From DAOVGU01 sp030637775 [NCBI: bacterium] (GTDB lineage: Bacteria; Ratteibacteria; UBA8468), in NCBI GenBank assembly GCA_030637775.1, contig DAOWFY010000071.1:1-5356 (forward strand): a stretch of DNA of 5,356 nucleotides, written 5' to 3'. Positions 394 to 5,356 of this stretch are shown here, piece by piece. The notes under the pieces were generated by a model. It ran no database searches. It was not told the DNA's origin and saw nothing but the letters and a program-made list of their open reading frames with translations. Each line of letters begins with the position of its first letter. Within the stretch, counting starts at the first letter, position 1. The position numbers and the translations under genes are program-made.

Positions 394-2934
394 ATGGATA
401 AATCCCTTTATCTTATTGATGGAAATAATCTCATCTATCGTTCCTATTATGCGTTGGGTCCACTTTCCACCTCTTCCGGTCAACCGACAAATGCCGCTCT
501 CGGCTTTACGACCACTCTGCTTAAACTAATCCGGGAGAAAAGTCCTTCCTATTTGGCAGTTGCCTTTGACCTTAAAGGGCCTACATTTCGCCATAAACTT
601 TTTCAGGATTATAAGATTCAGCGACCTCCAATGCCGGAGGATTTAGTAAGCCAGATTCCGATCATCAAGGAGATAGTCAAGGCTCTTCGTATCCCCATCT
701 TGGAAAGGCAAGGATATGAGGCGGACGATGTTTTAGCCACGGTAGCAAAACGAGCAGAAAAAGAAAATCTAAATACCTTTATTATTACCGGGGATAAGGA
801 TATTCTTCAATTGGTTGATGTTAGAATCAAGGTCTACAATACCAACAAGAACCTTCTCTATGATGAAGAAAAGGTAAGGGAAAATTTTGGCATATCCCCG
901 GAGAATATCGTTGACCTTATTGCTTTGATGGGTGACGCATCGGATAATATTCCCGGGGTCTCCGGTATTGGAGAAAAGACCGCCGTCAAATTAATTGAGA
1001 AGTTTGGTTCTCTAGAGAAGCTTTATGAAAATCTTGATAGAATAGAGGGTTCCCTCAAGGAGAAACTAAAACAAGGAAAAGAAATAGCCTTTTTAAGTAA
1101 GAGATTGGCAATACTTGATTTATCTGTACCCTTAGAGATAAAAGTTGCTGACTGTCAGATGAAGAGTCCTGATTACCAGAAATTAAGAGAAATTTTCCAG
1201 AGACTGGAGTTCAAGAGATTGGTTAAAGAGATAGAGAAGAGAGATTCTTCGGCTGTGCCTCAGAATGACACTTCGTGTCGGGTTGCTTCGCCTTCGGCTC
1301 ACAATGACGAGGAAGATTTTTTGCTCTTTTCGCCGGGCAAATCTTATAAGATGTCAGAGATTTTGGGGGATTTAGAGAGCTTTAGGGCTATCTTAGAGAA
1401 TCCGGACATAGAAAAGATTGGTTTTCATCTCAAGGAGAAAATAGTTCAATTTGCAAAGAGCGGAATTGAGGCAAGAGGAGAACTCTTCGATCTGGCTGTG
1501 GCGGGATATCTGTTGAATACGGGGCCAATGACTGTAGGGGTCGGATTCATCCGACCCGCGGGCTTGATAAATCAAGCCCCCACAGAATTGCGGGACTATT
1601 ATGAAAGAGACCTTCAGAAGAAAAATCTTTTCTCTCTCTTTAGAGAAGTGGAGATGCCTCTCGCCAGCGTCCTAACAAAGTTGGAAATAAGGGGTATCTA
1701 CATTGATCTCAATTACCTTTCCTCTTTAAGCAAAAGATTTGGAGAAAAACTGCGAGATTTAGAAAGGGAGATATATTTAGCAAGTGGAGAGGAGTTTAAC
1801 ATCAATTCTCCCGATCAACTGAGAAAAATTCTCTTTGAGAAATTAAAGCTACCCCCGGGCAAAAGAACAAAGAAAGGTTACTCTACCGATAGCGAGGTGT
1901 TAAAGGAACTCTCAAAGATTCACCATCTTCCCGCCACCTTATTAGAGTATCGGGAGCTTTACAAACTTAAGAGTACCTATGTTGATGCTTTACCGAAACT
2001 TATCAGCAAGAAAGATAATAGACTTCATACCACCTTTAATCAGATCGGAACGGCTACCGGAAGGCTCTCCTCTTCCAACCCGAATCTGCAGAATATCCCC
2101 ATCAGAACGGAGAATGGTTCCTTAATCCGGAAAGCATTTAGGGCGGAGAAAAAAAATCTCCTCTTTTCCTTTGACTACTCCCAGATTGAATTAAGGATTC
2201 TGGGGCATCTTTCTCAAGACTCTCTCCTGATAGAAGCCTTTTTGAAGGATAAAGATATTCACGCGGAAACCGCCTCTTTAATCTTTAAGGGAGAATCATC
2301 ACCCTCTCTTCTATCCCCTCCCCTCGAGGGAGGGCTCCCGTCCGGTGGACGGGATGGGGGGGAAGATAGGGGAGGGGGGATTACTCCGGAAATGCGACGG
2401 ATTGGAAAAACAGTAAACTTTGCTATTGTCTATGGGATGAGTGGTTTTGGTTTAGCAAAAGAGTTGGAAATTAAGAGAAAAGAGGCAGAAGATTTTATTG
2501 CGCGCTATTTTGAAAGATATCGCCGCGTTAAGGAATATTTGGAAGAGACCTTGGAAAGAGCAAGAGAGGAAGGCTATGTCTCTACCATTCTGGGTAGACG
2601 CCGCATGATTCCCAATATTAAAAGTGAACTTCCCAATCTGCGAAAAATTGCCGAGCGCGCCGCGGTTAATATGCCGGTTCAGGGCTCGGCGGCCGATCTT
2701 TTAAAGCTCGCAATGGTAAAGATTGAGAGGGATTTGACAAAGAAAAATTTAAGGACTACAATGATTTTATCAATCCATGACGAACTTCTCTTTGAAGGGC
2801 CAGAGGAAGAGGAGCAACTTTTGACAAAGATTGTTAAGGATGATATGATAAATGCAATTCCTCTTTCCCTGCCGATTGAGGTGGAGGTGAAGAAAGGAAA
2901 GAACTGGTTGGAATTGACAAAGATAAAGGATTGA
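394..2934 (+). CDS. polA: DNA polymerase I (5' nuclease + polymerase; vestigial proofreading domain; three in-frame repeat insertions)
   Basis: 846 aa, a family A polymerase for Okazaki-fragment maturation and repair gap filling in the cytoplasm. The 5' nuclease domain (about 1-285) has the N-terminal DGNN (Asp9), EADD (109-112), GDKD (133-136) and GDASDN (180-185), followed by a helix-hairpin-helix region. The 3'-5' exonuclease region (about 306-410) lacks the DxE motif, and the Asp expected in NLKYD is Lys349 (HLKEK). Only a YxxxD (402-406) remains, so proofreading is probably absent, as in Taq or Bacillus enzymes. The polymerase part has TATGRLSSSNPNLQNIP (553-569), motif A DYSQIELR (Asp594), the O-helix with Arg668/Lys672/Phe676/Tyr680, and motif C HDE with Asp796. 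Repeat-derived inserts lie at about residues 283-305, 380-397 and 636-662, all in frame. The start is ATG 394; AAAGGT at 377-382 is an acceptable if slightly distant ribosome site, and an ATG at 390 gives only three codons. No clear promoter was seen upstream. Confidence 0.97.
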   Translation: MDKSLYLIDGNNLIYRSYYALGPLSTSSGQPTNAALGFTTTLLKLIREKSPSYLAVAFDLKGPTFRHKLFQDYKIQRPPMPEDLVSQIPIIKEIVKALRIPILERQGYEADDVLATVAKRAEKENLNTFIITGDKDILQLVDVRIKVYNTNKNLLYDEEKVRENFGISPENIVDLIALMGDASDNIPGVSGIGEKTAVKLIEKFGSLEKLYENLDRIEGSLKEKLKQGKEIAFLSKRLAILDLSVPLEIKVADCQMKSPDYQKLREIFQRLEFKRLVKEIEKRDSSAVPQNDTSCRVASPSAHNDEEDFLLFSPGKSYKMSEILGDLESFRAILENPDIEKIGFHLKEKIVQFAKSGIEARGELFDLAVAGYLLNTGPMTVGVGFIRPAGLINQAPTELRDYYERDLQKKNLFSLFREVEMPLASVLTKLEIRGIYIDLNYLSSLSKRFGEKLRDLEREIYLASGEEFNINSPDQLRKILFEKLKLPPGKRTKKGYSTDSEVLKELSKIHHLPATLLEYRELYKLKSTYVDALPKLISKKDNRLHTTFNQIGTATGRLSSSNPNLQNIPIRTENGSLIRKAFRAEKKNLLFSFDYSQIELRILGHLSQDSLLIEAFLKDKDIHAETASLIFKGESSPSLLSPPLEGGLPSGGRDGGEDRGGGITPEMRRIGKTVNFAIVYGMSGFGLAKELEIKRKEAEDFIARYFERYRRVKEYLEETLERAREEGYVSTILGRRRMIPNIKSELPNLRKIAERAAVNMPVQGSAADLLKLAMVKIERDLTKKNLRTTMILSIHDELLFEGPEEEEQLLTKIVKDDMINAIPLSLPIEVEVKKGKNWLELTKIKD
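1241..1308 (-). repeat. Tandem GTCATT-TGAG repeat pair embedded in polA
   Basis: On the minus strand this stretch holds two 29-nt units in direct tandem, at 1308-1280 and 1269-1241. Both open with GTCATTnTGAG and contain GAAG near the end. They match at 21 of 29 positions by my count. The 10-nt spacer forms, with flanking bases, the hairpin GACAC/GTGTC (1267-1271/1275-1279, loop TTC). The sequence resembles the dispersed GTCATTGCGAG...CGAAGCAATC and GTCATTCTGAG...GAAGAATC repeats known from many environmental bacterial genomes. In polA it is translated as a hydrophilic Ser/Ala/Thr-rich stretch, about residues 283-305. That is the linker between the 5' nuclease and the exonuclease-like domain, where an insertion would be well tolerated. 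Confidence 0.75.
1532..1585. repeat. Three-way-junction palindromic element embedded in polA
   Basis: 54 nt, equal to 18 codons. The outer stem CTGTAG (1532-1537) pairs with CCACAG (1580-1585), with one A-C mismatch. Arm 1 is GGGTCGGA/TCCGACCC (1538-1545/1550-1557, loop TTCA). After a 2-nt linker, arm 2 is GGGCTTGAT/ATCAAGCCC (1560-1568/1571-1579). It is read in frame as about residues 380-397 of PolA (VGVGFIRPAGLINQAPT), inside the degenerate exonuclease domain where family members normally have other sequence. The arrangement matches that of 320-367, though the bases differ. It resembles the GGGG-hairpin-GCGGGCTTGATAAATCAAGCCC type of dispersed repeat seen in uncultivated bacterial genomes. 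Confidence 0.78.
2302..2378. repeat. CCCTCCC/GGGAGGG palindromic element embedded in polA
   Basis: The outer stem is 14 bp, 2302-2315 with 2365-2378, including three G-T wobbles. Arm 1 is CCCTCCC/GGGAGGG (2316-2322/2328-2334, loop CTCGA). Arm 2 is TCCCGTCC/GGACGGGA (2336-2343/2347-2354, loop GGT). A G-rich bulge, 2355-2364, completes it. In PolA it encodes a Pro/Gly-rich stretch (about residues 636-662, SPPLEGG...DRGGG) between motif A and the O-helix. Typical family A enzymes have only a short loop there before the TPEMRR-like sequence. The same family of sequence recurs at 4793-4815 and 5297-5356. Confidence 0.8.
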
Positions 2935-2950: not shown

Positions 2951-2962
2951 AAAGGGGGGTGA
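2951..2962 (+). promoter_or_regulatory. Ribosome binding site that sets the first pseudopilin start
   Basis: AAAGGGGGGTGA matches an extended Shine-Dalgarno (GGAGGTGA type, one G-U wobble), 8 nt before ATG 2971. The GTG at 2959 lies inside this site and so cannot use it. The next gene has the same arrangement, with AGGGGGTGG (3569-3577) just before ATG 3581. This supports 2971 over 2959 as the start. Confidence 0.75.
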
Positions 2963-2970
2963 ATAAGGAA

Positions 2971-3537
2971 ATGAGAGGAAGAAAAGGATTTACTTTGATT
3001 GAGCTTTTGGTGGTAATAGCAATTATTGCTATTTTAGCGGCGATGCTATTACCCGCATTAGCCAGAGCCCGGGAGCAGGCCAGAAGAGGAGTCTGCATCA
3101 CTCGGTTAAAACAGATTGGTCTGGCATTGCATATGTTTGCCCAGGACCACGAGGAGGCTTTCCCTGCCGCAAATACTGATCATAGCGACTATACAGGTTT
3201 GGGCCAGTTGGAAGTGGTAGGCAAAGAGTATATATCTGCTCACAAAGTGTTTATTTGTCCATCCGATAGGGCTACCCTTGCATTGAGCGTAGACGCAAAC
3301 TACTTTTCCTATGCCTATGATGCTGGTCTTACCGAGCAGAGTAGCTCAAGTGCCTACATCGTTAGTGACCGAACAACTCCTGATGCTTCGACAGCCTGTC
3401 CTGCATCAGTTCCTTCTGGCACCCATAAGGGAGATGGAGTTAATATTCTTTATGTGGGTGGTCAGGCGGAGTGGGTCCCCGAGGCAAGCCTCACGGATGG
3501 TGCTATGGGAGTTCTCGTAACTGCCAGCGGTAGCTAA
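2971..3537 (+). CDS. Prepilin-like (type II pseudopilin/type IV pilin-like) protein with a diverged H-X-DG C-terminus
   Basis: 188 aa from ATG 2971. A six-residue basic leader (MRGRKG) precedes [19 protein letters not shown]. This is a class III signal, cut by prepilin peptidase after Gly6, leaving an N-methylated Phe with Glu at mature position 5 (Glu11). Residues 10-30 form the membrane/assembly helix. Then follow a basic [10 protein letters not shown] segment, [20 protein letters not shown], and FICPSD with Cys96, which could pair with Cys42. The C-terminal strand reads [18 protein letters not shown] (152-169). In the family this is normally H...NVLYxDGHVxWV; here the Asp of DG is Gly163 and the following His is Gln165. 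Such proteins form surface or secretion filaments; the exact role is unknown. It is the first of two tandem paralogues, 43 nt apart, with its own promoter. A GTG start at 2959 (192 aa) is less likely. Confidence 0.88.
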
Positions 3538-3580: not shown

Positions 3581-4204
3581 ATGAGAAGAAAAGGTTTTAC
3601 CTTAATTGAACTTTTGGTGGTAATAGCGATTATTGCTATTTTAGCGGCAATGCTATTACCTGTTTTAGCCAGAGCCAGGGAGCAGGCAAGAAGATCTGTC
3701 TGTATTTCCAACTTAAAGCAGATTGGTCTGGGGATGCATATGTACGCTCAGGATTACAATGAATGGTTCCCCACATCCGGTGGTGGAGCTCATGCTGTAG
3801 CTTATTCTTTCAGATGTCTGGCTCGATACGTTACGGCACCCAAGACTTTTATCTGTCCGAGTGCCGCTGATACAGCAGCCGATAGTGTTGACGAACTCAC
3901 CGGGACAAGTGTATCCTATGCTTACAATTATGGCTTGAGTGAGCAAACTTCAACCGATAACGTACTGGTAATAGACCAGCCCGACGAAGGTGCTGAGAGC
4001 AATACGCAAGTAAAAGCACTAACTCCAGATCTGCAGACTACATCTAACCATGGTCGGGCTGGGGTTAATGCTCTCTATGTTGATGGTCATGTAAAATGGG
4101 TAGAGTCCACATCAACCTTCAATATTCCTACATCTGGTGGAGAGACCGCCGATGTGCCCAATCTTGCTAATGCCGAGTTTGTGAACCCTGATAAGACACC
4201 TTAA
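3581..4204 (+). CDS. Prepilin-like (type II pseudopilin/type IV pilin-like) protein with H-X(10)-DG C-terminal motif
   Basis: 207 aa. A five-residue leader (MRRKG) is followed by [19 protein letters not shown], so prepilin peptidase would cleave after Gly5 and Glu10 is mature position 5. Then come [38 protein letters not shown] with Cys92, [12 protein letters not shown], and [19 protein letters not shown]. In the last, His157 and Asp168-Gly169 are ten residues apart. This is the canonical prepilin-type H-X9-DG-like ending, one residue longer by my count. Compared with the upstream copy it keeps the DGH motif and has a longer tail. The first part of the two genes is almost identical in DNA (77 of 84 bases, 3004-3087 against 3611-3694), indicating tandem duplication. 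It is preceded by a strong ribosome site (3569-3577) and followed by an intrinsic terminator, so it is probably the last gene of the transcript. Confidence 0.92.
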
Positions 4205-4232
4205 AGGCTGTGGTAGGAACAGAAGTAAAGAT

Positions 4233-4268
4233 AAAAAAACGCCGGGGAAAAATCTTCGGCGTTTTTTT
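4233..4268. terminator. Strong intrinsic terminator after the pseudopilin pair
   Basis: AAAAAAACGCCG (4233-4244) pairs perfectly with CGGCGTTTTTTT (4257-4268). G-T/G-C pairs at 4245-4247 with 4254-4256 can shorten the loop to six bases. The GC core is followed by seven T. The A-tract on the other side means it could work in both directions. It lies 29 nt after the stop at 4204 and insulates the ligase gene from upstream transcription. Confidence 0.93.
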
Positions 4269-4280
4269 ATTTGACATTTG

Positions 4281-4295: not shown

Positions 4296-5356
4296 ATGTC
4301 AAAAATCAGAAGAGTCCTTTTATATTCCTTTCTTCTTCTTTCCCCTTTAGCCTTTTCTAAATTTACCTATAACTATACAATTTTTAAACTGATTTTGCCC
4401 CAGATTTTTTTTCTTTTTATTGCTTTAACATTTCTTATTGAAAAGAAAATTTTTTACTATCATAAGCCTTTAACCATTGTTCTTTCTCTTTATCTCCTCT
4501 TCAATCTCCTCTCTTTTCTTGTTAATCCCTTTCATCATCTTAGTTACCCCCACATAATGCAATTATTAACCTATTTTTCCATCTTCCTCATCACGGTTAA
4601 TTTAAAGAAGGATAAAAGGCTCTTCTTTTTTTTATTTGTTTCCGGGGCTCTTCTTTCTCTCTGGGCAATCAGTGATTTTTTGAAATTTCATCTGGTTAAT
4701 GCCGGTTTTGGCAATAAGAATTTTTTTGCCGGCTATATCATCTTTCTTATTCCCCTTTCATTAAGTTTTGTCATCATTCACCCCCACCTATCTCCTCCCC
4801 CCTCAAGGGGGAGGATTTACCATAAAATCATTTTTCTTTCTCTATTTCTCCTCTATTCCTTTGCCCTTCTTCTCACAAAGTCACAAGCAGCCTATTTAGC
4901 AACAATCGGTGCCATCCTCTTTCTTTTTGCTGTAAACTCAACCAATAGAAAAATACTTTTGCTTAAAACATCCTTTATTCTATTTTTCTTATTTCTTATC
5001 TCTATATTCTCTCATTTCTATTTTGTTAATAGAATCACGGAAAATGTTAGATTGCTTGTCTGGAGAGGAACAATAGATATGATTAAGGTTCATCCTTTAT
5101 TGGGCTCTGGGCCGGGAACCTTTACTATTCATTATCCAAATTACAGGATACCGGAATACTTTCTGCAAAAAGCGGTTGCTCCCATCACCGCCCATGCTCA
5201 CAATGAATATTTGGAGATTCTTTCCGAAACCGGAATTTTTGGTCTCCTTCTTTTTCTTGGTTTTATTTTTCTTTTTTTTAAGGAGGCATGGAAAACCTTT
5301 CCCCCTCCCCTAATTTCCCCTCCCTCGAGGGAGGGGAAATTAGGGGAGGGGGAAAG
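4296..5356 (+). CDS. O-antigen ligase/polymerase (Wzy_C/WaaL-like) membrane protein, 3' truncated by the window
   Basis: Open from ATG 4296 to the window end (353 codons plus two bases), so the C-terminus is missing. It is a very hydrophobic protein with many predicted membrane helices from residue 7 onward. The family's FGNKNFFAGY segment follows the central helices. A large non-cytoplasmic-type loop carries WRGTIDMIKVHPLLGSGPGTF (256-276, Arg257) and HAHNEYLEILSETG (300-313, His300/His302), then a further helix. These Arg and His positions correspond to the conserved catalytic-loop residues of WaaL/Wzy-type glycan transferases, which move undecaprenyl-linked glycans onto an acceptor in the periplasm. 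The actual substrate is unknown; a polysaccharide or glycoprotein role is possible. Two repeat-derived stretches interrupt it: HPHLSPPPSRGRIYH (about 162-176) and FPPPLISPPSREGKLGEGE (335-353). The coding strand is strongly pyrimidine-rich. There is no ribosome site; see the extended -10 element. Confidence 0.85.
   Translation, partial: MSKIRRVLLYSFLLLSPLAFSKFTYNYTIFKLILPQIFFLFIALTFLIEKKIFYYHKPLTIVLSLYLLFNLLSFLVNPFHHLSYPHIMQLLTYFSIFLITVNLKKDKRLFFFLFVSGALLSLWAISDFLKFHLVNAGFGNKNFFAGYIIFLIPLSLSFVIIHPHLSPPPSRGRIYHKIIFLSLFLLYSFALLLTKSQAAYLATIGAILFLFAVNSTNRKILLLKTSFILFFLFLISIFSHFYFVNRITENVRLLVWRGTIDMIKVHPLLGSGPGTFTIHYPNYRIPEYFLQKAVAPITAHAHNEYLEILSETGIFGLLLFLGFIFLFFKEAWKTFPPPLISPPSREGKLGEGE
4793..4815. 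repeat. CCTCCCCC/GGGGGAGG hairpin embedded in the ligase gene
   Basis: TCCTCCCCC (4793-4801) and GGGGGAGGA (4807-4815) form a perfect 9-bp stem around the loop CTCAA. A C-rich lead-in starts near 4780. It is the same kind of hairpin as 2316-2334 (loop CTCGA) but without the second arm, so it looks like a half element. It is read in frame as LSPPPSRGR between two membrane helices of the ligase, the type of loop where extra sequence is tolerated. Confidence 0.75.
5297..5356. repeat. Perfect 60-nt palindrome at the end of the ligase fragment
   Basis: The left arm 5297-5324 and right arm 5329-5356 (28 nt each) are exact reverse complements around TCGA, which is itself self-complementary, so all 60 bases form one perfect palindrome. 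The arms are built of alternating C4-5/T blocks and a TAATTT segment. It belongs to the same family as 2302-2378 and 4793-4815. It remains open in the ligase frame (FPPPLISPPSREGKLGEGE). The palindrome stops exactly at the last base of the window and could extend further. Confidence 0.9.

Follow-up and report, generated by a model that had tools for sequence, protein, structure and literature searches.

The gene for DNA polymerase I (polA) of DAOVGU01 sp030637775, an uncultured bacterium of the Ratteibacteria lineage UBA8468, carries three in-frame repeat inserts of unrelated sequence. The gene lies in the 5,356-nt window analysed here, which spans contig C167 in full, one of the 177 contigs in a 1.397 Mb assembly (GCA_030637775.1, here G000). 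The inserts are most probably copies of small mobile repeats of the repetitive extragenic palindromic (REP) type that have spread through the genomes of the family and that, unlike most REPs, accumulate inside genes. Approximately 22.6% of G000 was read, mostly regions picked through repeat matches, so the gene counts given below are not per-gene rates. The same family includes the siblings G001 and G002 (G003 is also compared, at lysC), family f2 is represented by G004 and G008, and 23 PolA sequences from families f3-f5 of the same class form the comparison set for the inserts. No literature on this lineage was found among the open-access matches listed. The gene and its inserts are as follows; rows are matches in G000 at E<=1, the query itself included, and some are the two strands of one palindrome.

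394 to 2934, + strand: polA, DNA polymerase I, 846 amino acids (Pfam PF02739, PF01367 and DNA_pol_A; Taq alignment; AlphaFold2)
1241 to 1308, + strand: insert 1, a REP-like cluster tagged CGTC (ATGAC) that lies in the linker from the 5' nuclease to the exonuclease-like domain, residues 283-305; 25 rows
1526 to 1532, + strand: CAATGAC, directly 5' of the GTAG dimer (sequence comparison)
1534 to 1583, + strand: insert 2, a GTAG...CCAC REP dimer of two perfect hairpins in the exonuclease domain, residues 380-398; 24 rows
2302 to 2378, + strand: insert 3, a C/G-rich palindrome preceding the O-helix, residues 637-662; 34 rows (composite and parts)
2329 to 2355, + strand: 27-nt hairpin repeat nested inside insert 3 as its core; 17 rows genome-wide cover it

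The nuclease of this PolA aligns to Taq as far as residue 281 and the polymerase over residues 409-631 and 663-840 (phmmer). Frame and motifs are preserved, as the sequence-only reading had proposed. The AlphaFold2 model (47-row alignment; mean predicted local distance difference test [pLDDT] 87.5) has the Pol I structures of Taq, M. smegmatis and Bacillus as its top matches, and its only segments of at least three residues with pLDDT below 50 (285-305, 377-393 and 634-660) coincide with the inserts. All three places are longer than in the 23 f3-f5 relatives: 28 residues versus 11-18 in the linker, 26 versus 13 (23 of 23) at the exonuclease site and 37 versus 16-20 in the O-loop. The stretch before the O-helix has 31 residues compared to 6 in Taq (phmmer). 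The expected absence of the insert residues from relatives is therefore borne out in three other families of the class (f3-f5). In a wider alignment (46 used of 66 framed PolA proteins, from 80 loci of which 14 yielded no frame), only the O-loop insert is mostly absent from other PolA proteins; the linker and exonuclease inserts do not appear as absent there, the exonuclease domains of other phyla being longer. The exonuclease domain of the window PolA is presumably catalytically dead. The gene as a whole is not: its ratio of nonsynonymous to synonymous substitution (dN/dS) is 0.145 against G001 (residues 1-616; 553 codons away from gaps) and 0.092 against G002, so polA is under purifying selection. 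The inserts themselves are likely to be neutral for PolA. Insert 2 translates as VGVGFIRPAGLINQAPT, and the insert-encoded peptide stretches include EGGLPSGGRDGG and RGRIHPTRGLDK.

The inserts had been described as palindromic, and folding (200 shuffles per element) agrees with this to different degrees. Insert 2 (1532-1583) forms two hairpins (z -5.2, 0/200 shuffles equally stable) and insert 3 folds moderately well (z -2.05, 7/200), but the window copy of insert 1 folds no better than its shuffles (z 0.37, 124/200). For insert 1 the label is accordingly a weak one, whereas its status as a repeat holds. The reverse strand of insert 1 reads CGTCATTG, and CAGAATGAC and CACAATGAC are also found, giving the CGTC tag and the ATGAC motif. 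The unrelatedness of the three sequences is confirmed by their families (CGTC, GTAG and C/G-rich), whose genome-wide copies lie at different places except in polA itself; a single family is thus ruled out. Three insert sites do not equal three elements, as insert 3 is two elements, one nested in the other. Its composite is also found in contig C127 (91% identity). Copies elsewhere in and between genes had been predicted, and 25, 24 and 34 rows were found for inserts 1, 2 and 3, respectively. For the analyses below, eight of the 25 rows of insert 1 were left out (E 0.016-0.67), giving 17 CGTC rows; two of the 24 rows of insert 2 were left out (E 0.96), giving 22 GTAG rows; and 17 of the 34 rows of insert 3 were left out (16 with C/G-rich arms only and one weak row in C50, E 0.36). 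GTAG dimers were found outside G000 in five of 19 genomes searched, all in families f1 and f2 (37 rows in G001 and 44 in G008, compared to 24 in G000), and the insert 3 composite or its parts in six of 19.

The GTAG family has the tag, hairpins and inverted pairing of GTAG REPs (many copies read GTAGGGG...CCCCTAC, though insert 2 ends in CCAC) and is dispersed in 24 rows. It is not confined to extragenic DNA: 13 of the 22 rows, three of them half-dimers, are in frame within genes. Such a location does not disqualify the family, since a REP survey, in the part available, also counts intragenic members (PMC3733652). The genes are polA, uvrC, archease, uvrA, ileS, folC, mtnA, tsaB, apbE, thiL, argC and two that encode a DegT aminotransferase and a GFO/IDH oxidoreductase. 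The insert has matches to a model or domain of one and the same protein on either side in 12 of these 13; in the GFO/IDH oxidoreductase only the 5' side is matched. The remaining rows are extragenic, at gene ends, beside the transposase-like gene described below, or doubtful. Two dimers at gene ends (G000:C80:6073-6127 and C116:10755-10814) appear to furnish the TAG stop codon. All 13 genic copies in G000 are in sense orientation, as are five of seven in G001 (four places judged by eye to be shared with G000 are excluded, as is a copy immediately preceded by a stop). Against a null of two open frames in sense and one in antisense, these 18 of 20 copies give p 0.018, and the excess is mostly explained by open frames.

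A codon-usage phase test was applied under one rule to all sets, with no requirement for an open frame through the insert; comparisons between genomes are valid for this single-rule version only. GTAG flanks are in phase in 11 of 22 rows in G000, and on the same strand in another phase in two. In G001, 21 of the 37 rows were analysed, with 11 in phase and none out of phase on the same strand; in G008, which belongs to another family, none of the 20 analysed of 44 rows are in phase and two or one (under two codon models, its own built from just 27 open reading frames) are out of phase. A stricter earlier version gave in-phase to out-of-phase counts in G000 of 10 vs 1 for GTAG, 9 vs 0 for the 27-nt repeat and 2 vs 0 for CGTC.

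A candidate enzyme for the GTAG units is encoded at C119:7788-8213 (142 amino acids), with units of the insert 2 type on both sides. The protein resembles REP-associated tyrosine transposases (RAYTs; NF047646 E-value: 7e-18; PF01797 score 29 versus a cut-off of 23), and its nearest solved relative is TnpA-REP (4er8). A RAYT-like gene flanked by matching REPs is the REPtron arrangement, from which mobilisation of the GTAG units by this protein appears likely. Two longer Y1-transposase proteins are encoded at C119:11445-12431 (328 amino acids) and C86:1980-2945 (321 amino acids); a strict hairpin scan beside them found no GTAG hairpin.

Most copies of the 27-nt repeat are genic. Fifteen of its 17 copies lie inside frames of at least 100 amino acids with sequence on both sides, all in sense orientation; of the other two, one lies at the 5' end of gyrA, a gene with an uncertain start codon, and one in C168 (no family match). 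In 13 of the 15, a model or domain of one protein matches both sides: polA, ftsK, a TPR-SPOR protein, dnaX, a nitroreductase fusion, a PF01937 gene, a pyrK-like gene, lysC (two sites), argD, recJ, lplA and a PMT_2 protein. In an O-antigen ligase the family match is only 3' of the repeat, and neither Pfam nor NCBIfam gave a match to the C127 protein. By eye the latter resembles PilM and the short C168 frame a SIR2 fragment, but Pfam gave no match to either and these guesses are unconfirmed. The flanks are in phase in 12 of 17 copies and out of phase in none, with one coding flank in four and none in one. The CGTC copies are mostly extragenic (2/17 within genes), with two of 17 in phase, none out of phase, six with one coding flank and nine with none. 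The genic share of the 27-nt repeat differs from that of CGTC in the same genome (Fisher p 2e-5) and from that of GTAG with p 0.07. The families thus differ in where they lie, the 27-nt repeat being mostly genic, GTAG mixed and CGTC mostly outside genes. Several families do meet in the essential gene polA, but this is not peculiar to it: the GTAG and 27-nt inserts in many other genes rule out an explanation confined to polA. The dnaX gene carries two 27-nt repeats in tandem (G000:C93:5116-5173), and recJ (G000:C53, L166:923-2929, minus strand) seems, on inspection by eye, to contain three inserts that look like repeats, including a variant of the 27-nt repeat.

Filled and empty alleles can be compared directly at six 27-nt sites. 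In five (argD, lplA, lysC site 2, the pyrK-like gene and the PF01937 damage-control phosphatase gene, the last read by eye), G000 has exactly 27 nt more than an empty sibling allele. In G001, five of seven 27-nt loci have the same stop-free best frame on both sides (four sense, one antisense; no score limit). The consensus is stop-free in all six frames, and 16 of 17 copies start with GGAG. GGA or ATGGA flanks many copies on both sides, as a target-site duplication would, but this putative target resembles the end of the element. GGA-type words occur 1.4-1.9 times as often on the sense strand (GGA 1.58x, ATGGA 1.77x, ATGG 1.40x), and a pure target bias was considered for the orientation; it was rejected because 15 of 15 sense copies would have a probability of approximately 0.0016 even at a sense share of 0.65. 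Target bias thus explains only part of the orientation. Tentatively, the 27-nt repeat might be a mobile element with an intragenic niche, adding nine stop-free codons at GGA with little cost to essential genes; as GGA is often a glycine codon, insertion would often be at a turn.

A second gene of the window, encoding an O-antigen ligase, also bears repeats, and a further dimer precedes polA.

320 to 367, + strand: REP dimer of the GTAG...CTAC type in the gap that separates polA from the gene upstream (sequence pattern; fold with z -5.0)
4296 to 5354, + strand: O-antigen ligase gene (Wzy_C, PF04932), cut by the contig end
4778 to 4813, + strand: in-frame C/G-rich repeat of the O-antigen ligase gene (sequence comparison)
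5297 to 5356, + strand: perfect C/G-rich palindrome of 60 nt, also in frame in this gene and lying at the assembly break (z -6.9)

The two siblings with a readable PolA hold inserts at most of the same places, but largely with other sequence, so that the possibility raised against the original proposal, that close relatives all have the same residues, is only half realised. The exonuclease site has a GTAG dimer in G000, a C/G-rich repeat in G001 and a CGTC unit in G002. The seven bases CAATGAC beside the dimer are possibly the remnant of an older CGTC element, a reading suggested by the CGTC element of G002 at this site. The position corresponding to 4778-4813 has a GTAG dimer in G001 and nothing in G002, whose O-antigen ligase gene has a repeat-like insert at another position. 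An extra PolA insert at residue 216 of G001 is absent from G000 and G002. The O-loop has a C/G-rich repeat without the inner 27-nt repeat in G001, as far as the contig reaches, and no insert in G002, where it is 10 residues long. In family f2, PolA of G004 and G008 has repeats reading like SSPPRGEDKGEGE at several places. For the GTAG dimers, a comparison of FolC did not reveal a cleanly empty site. Alternatively, the insertions could be old and ancestral, having diverged past recognition, such that the sibling differences reflect decay instead of turnover. This would suit the linker inserts, which are CGTC-type in all three genomes in differing arrangements, with the 3' boundary AATGACGAGGAAGATTT common to G000 and G001; the O-loop inserts of these two, which are alike at the 3' end; and their GTAG dimers at matching places in uvrC, tsaB and mtnA (compared by eye). 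Decay is nonetheless an unlikely explanation where the elements are of different families (exonuclease site, O-antigen ligase gene) or where an insert, as at residue 216, is confined to G001.

The inserts could also be kept for a function, as messenger RNA hairpins or as flexible peptides that alter PolA and repair proteins, for example to give a mutator state, an idea found in the available part of PMC3733652. The bearers do include the replication and repair genes polA, uvrA, uvrC, recJ, priA and dnaX, and the same tendency is described in that source. They also include argD, lysC, folC, ileS, argC, lplA, apbE and thiL, and at the corresponding PolA sites the siblings are either empty or carry unrelated sequences, which makes this explanation improbable. 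An assembly or binning artefact is highly improbable: contigs do end in or near repeats (the window ends within the 5297-5356 palindrome, with which C53 opens before continuing in an open frame resembling the G001 protein, and polA of G001 is split, one contig starting inside the O-loop repeat and the other stopping approximately 20 codons before), but in most genes checked family models match both sides in one frame, separate assemblies have the same uvrC, tsaB and mtnA dimers, and the +27-nt alleles are cleanly distinct from empty ones.

The proposed model for the spread of REP-type mobile repeats in these genomes is as follows. The resident RAYT-like transposase would mobilise GTAG dimers in the form of single-stranded hairpins. 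The CGTC, C/G-rich and 27-nt repeats would spread by other means, for which no enzyme is proposed. Insertions that shift the frame, bring in a stop or hit the core would be lost, and whole-codon insertions in loops would be retained; selection of this kind, already suggested by the sequence-only reading, fits the data. A loop that tolerates one insert would become a landing place for more, and families would therefore replace or invade each other at one site. The 27-nt repeat would evade much of this filter, since it adds a net nine codons and its consensus is stop-free in any frame, landing apparently at GGA, often a glycine codon.

Several observations weigh against this model. Transposition itself was never observed, and repeats can be mishandled by assemblies. 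The RAYT-like protein scores 64.8 bits against the NCBIfam cut-off of 80 for NF047646 and is not among the listed matches of a genome-wide PF01797 search. None of the CGTC, C/G-rich and 27-nt repeats was linked to a transposase. Two of the 22 GTAG rows in G000 have coding flanks in different phases. At the sixth 27-nt site, lysC site 1, G000 has +18 nt, G002 has +27 nt and G001 and G003 are empty, which implies repeated insertion or precise loss and not one simple event. Target bias accounts for only part of the sense-only placement of the 27-nt repeat, and one G001 copy reads antisense. Insert 1 folds no better than chance, and low pLDDT values would be expected at any stretch for which the alignment offers no counterpart.

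Positions 1-318 of the window hold the end of a gene with no Pfam match, whose tail reads GGGGGCFIATAAFGTPLAEEV, which we take to be a C-terminal sorting-like signal; the corresponding G001 frame has 1117 amino acids. Two adjacent prepilin-like genes (2959-3537 and 3581-4204) share 81% identity across a 187-nt stretch close to their starts, the second with the Pfam domains N_methyl and DUF1559. Prepilin-like genes are also found on the contigs carrying polA pieces in G001, G002, G004 and G008. A perfect 14-bp inverted repeat with a T run (4231-4270) follows the second gene and is terminator-like.

Rickettsia is the best-known source of in-frame palindromes, alongside a scatter of further cases, and the present lineage is another in which they occur in many housekeeping genes. 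As filled, empty and replaced alleles exist among close relatives, insertion, tolerance and turnover become directly measurable. If its proposed mobility is correct, the frame-neutral 27-nt repeat would show how essential proteins can gain residues from mobile DNA. A further caution is that what looks like a new domain inserted in a metagenomic protein may instead be a repeat.

The repeats described here resemble REPINs and elements like miniature inverted-repeat transposable elements in being non-autonomous hairpin repeats for which there is a candidate transposase gene, but the 27-nt repeat differs in being short, not tied to a transposase and mostly in reading frames. GTAG REPs and REPtrons share with the present system the GTAG tag, the two inverted hairpins and the REP-flanked RAYT-like gene; the available part of PMC3733652 describes intragenic GTAG-tagged REPs in Opitutus terrae, Thioalkalivibrio and others, REPs inserted in uvrA and DNA polymerase I or supplying TAG stops in other species, and recB genes of two Xanthomonas species with different REPs at approximately one site. 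The differences are that 13 of 22 rows are genic here while REPs are mostly intergenic (PMC3733652 and PMC8266576, as available in part) and that three unrelated families meet in one gene. The likeness to Rickettsia palindromic elements (RPEs) drawn from the sequence at the outset is apt: RPE-4, -6 and -7 have the CGTC tag and ATGAC motif of insert 1 (PMC3733652, PMC3767692) and are short in-frame repeats in housekeeping genes, and different RPE types occupy one locus in different species (both from the accessible portion of PMC3767692). Unlike RPEs, however, the insert 1 family is mostly extragenic (2/17), and the genic load consists mainly of GTAG and 27-nt repeats. Intragenic REPs, including those in DNA polymerase I, several repeat families per genome and different repeats at one site are thus already known from what is available of these sources (PMC3733652, PMC3767692); the extent of the phenomenon, the three families in one gene, the turnover at common sites and the frame-neutral 27-nt repeat look new.

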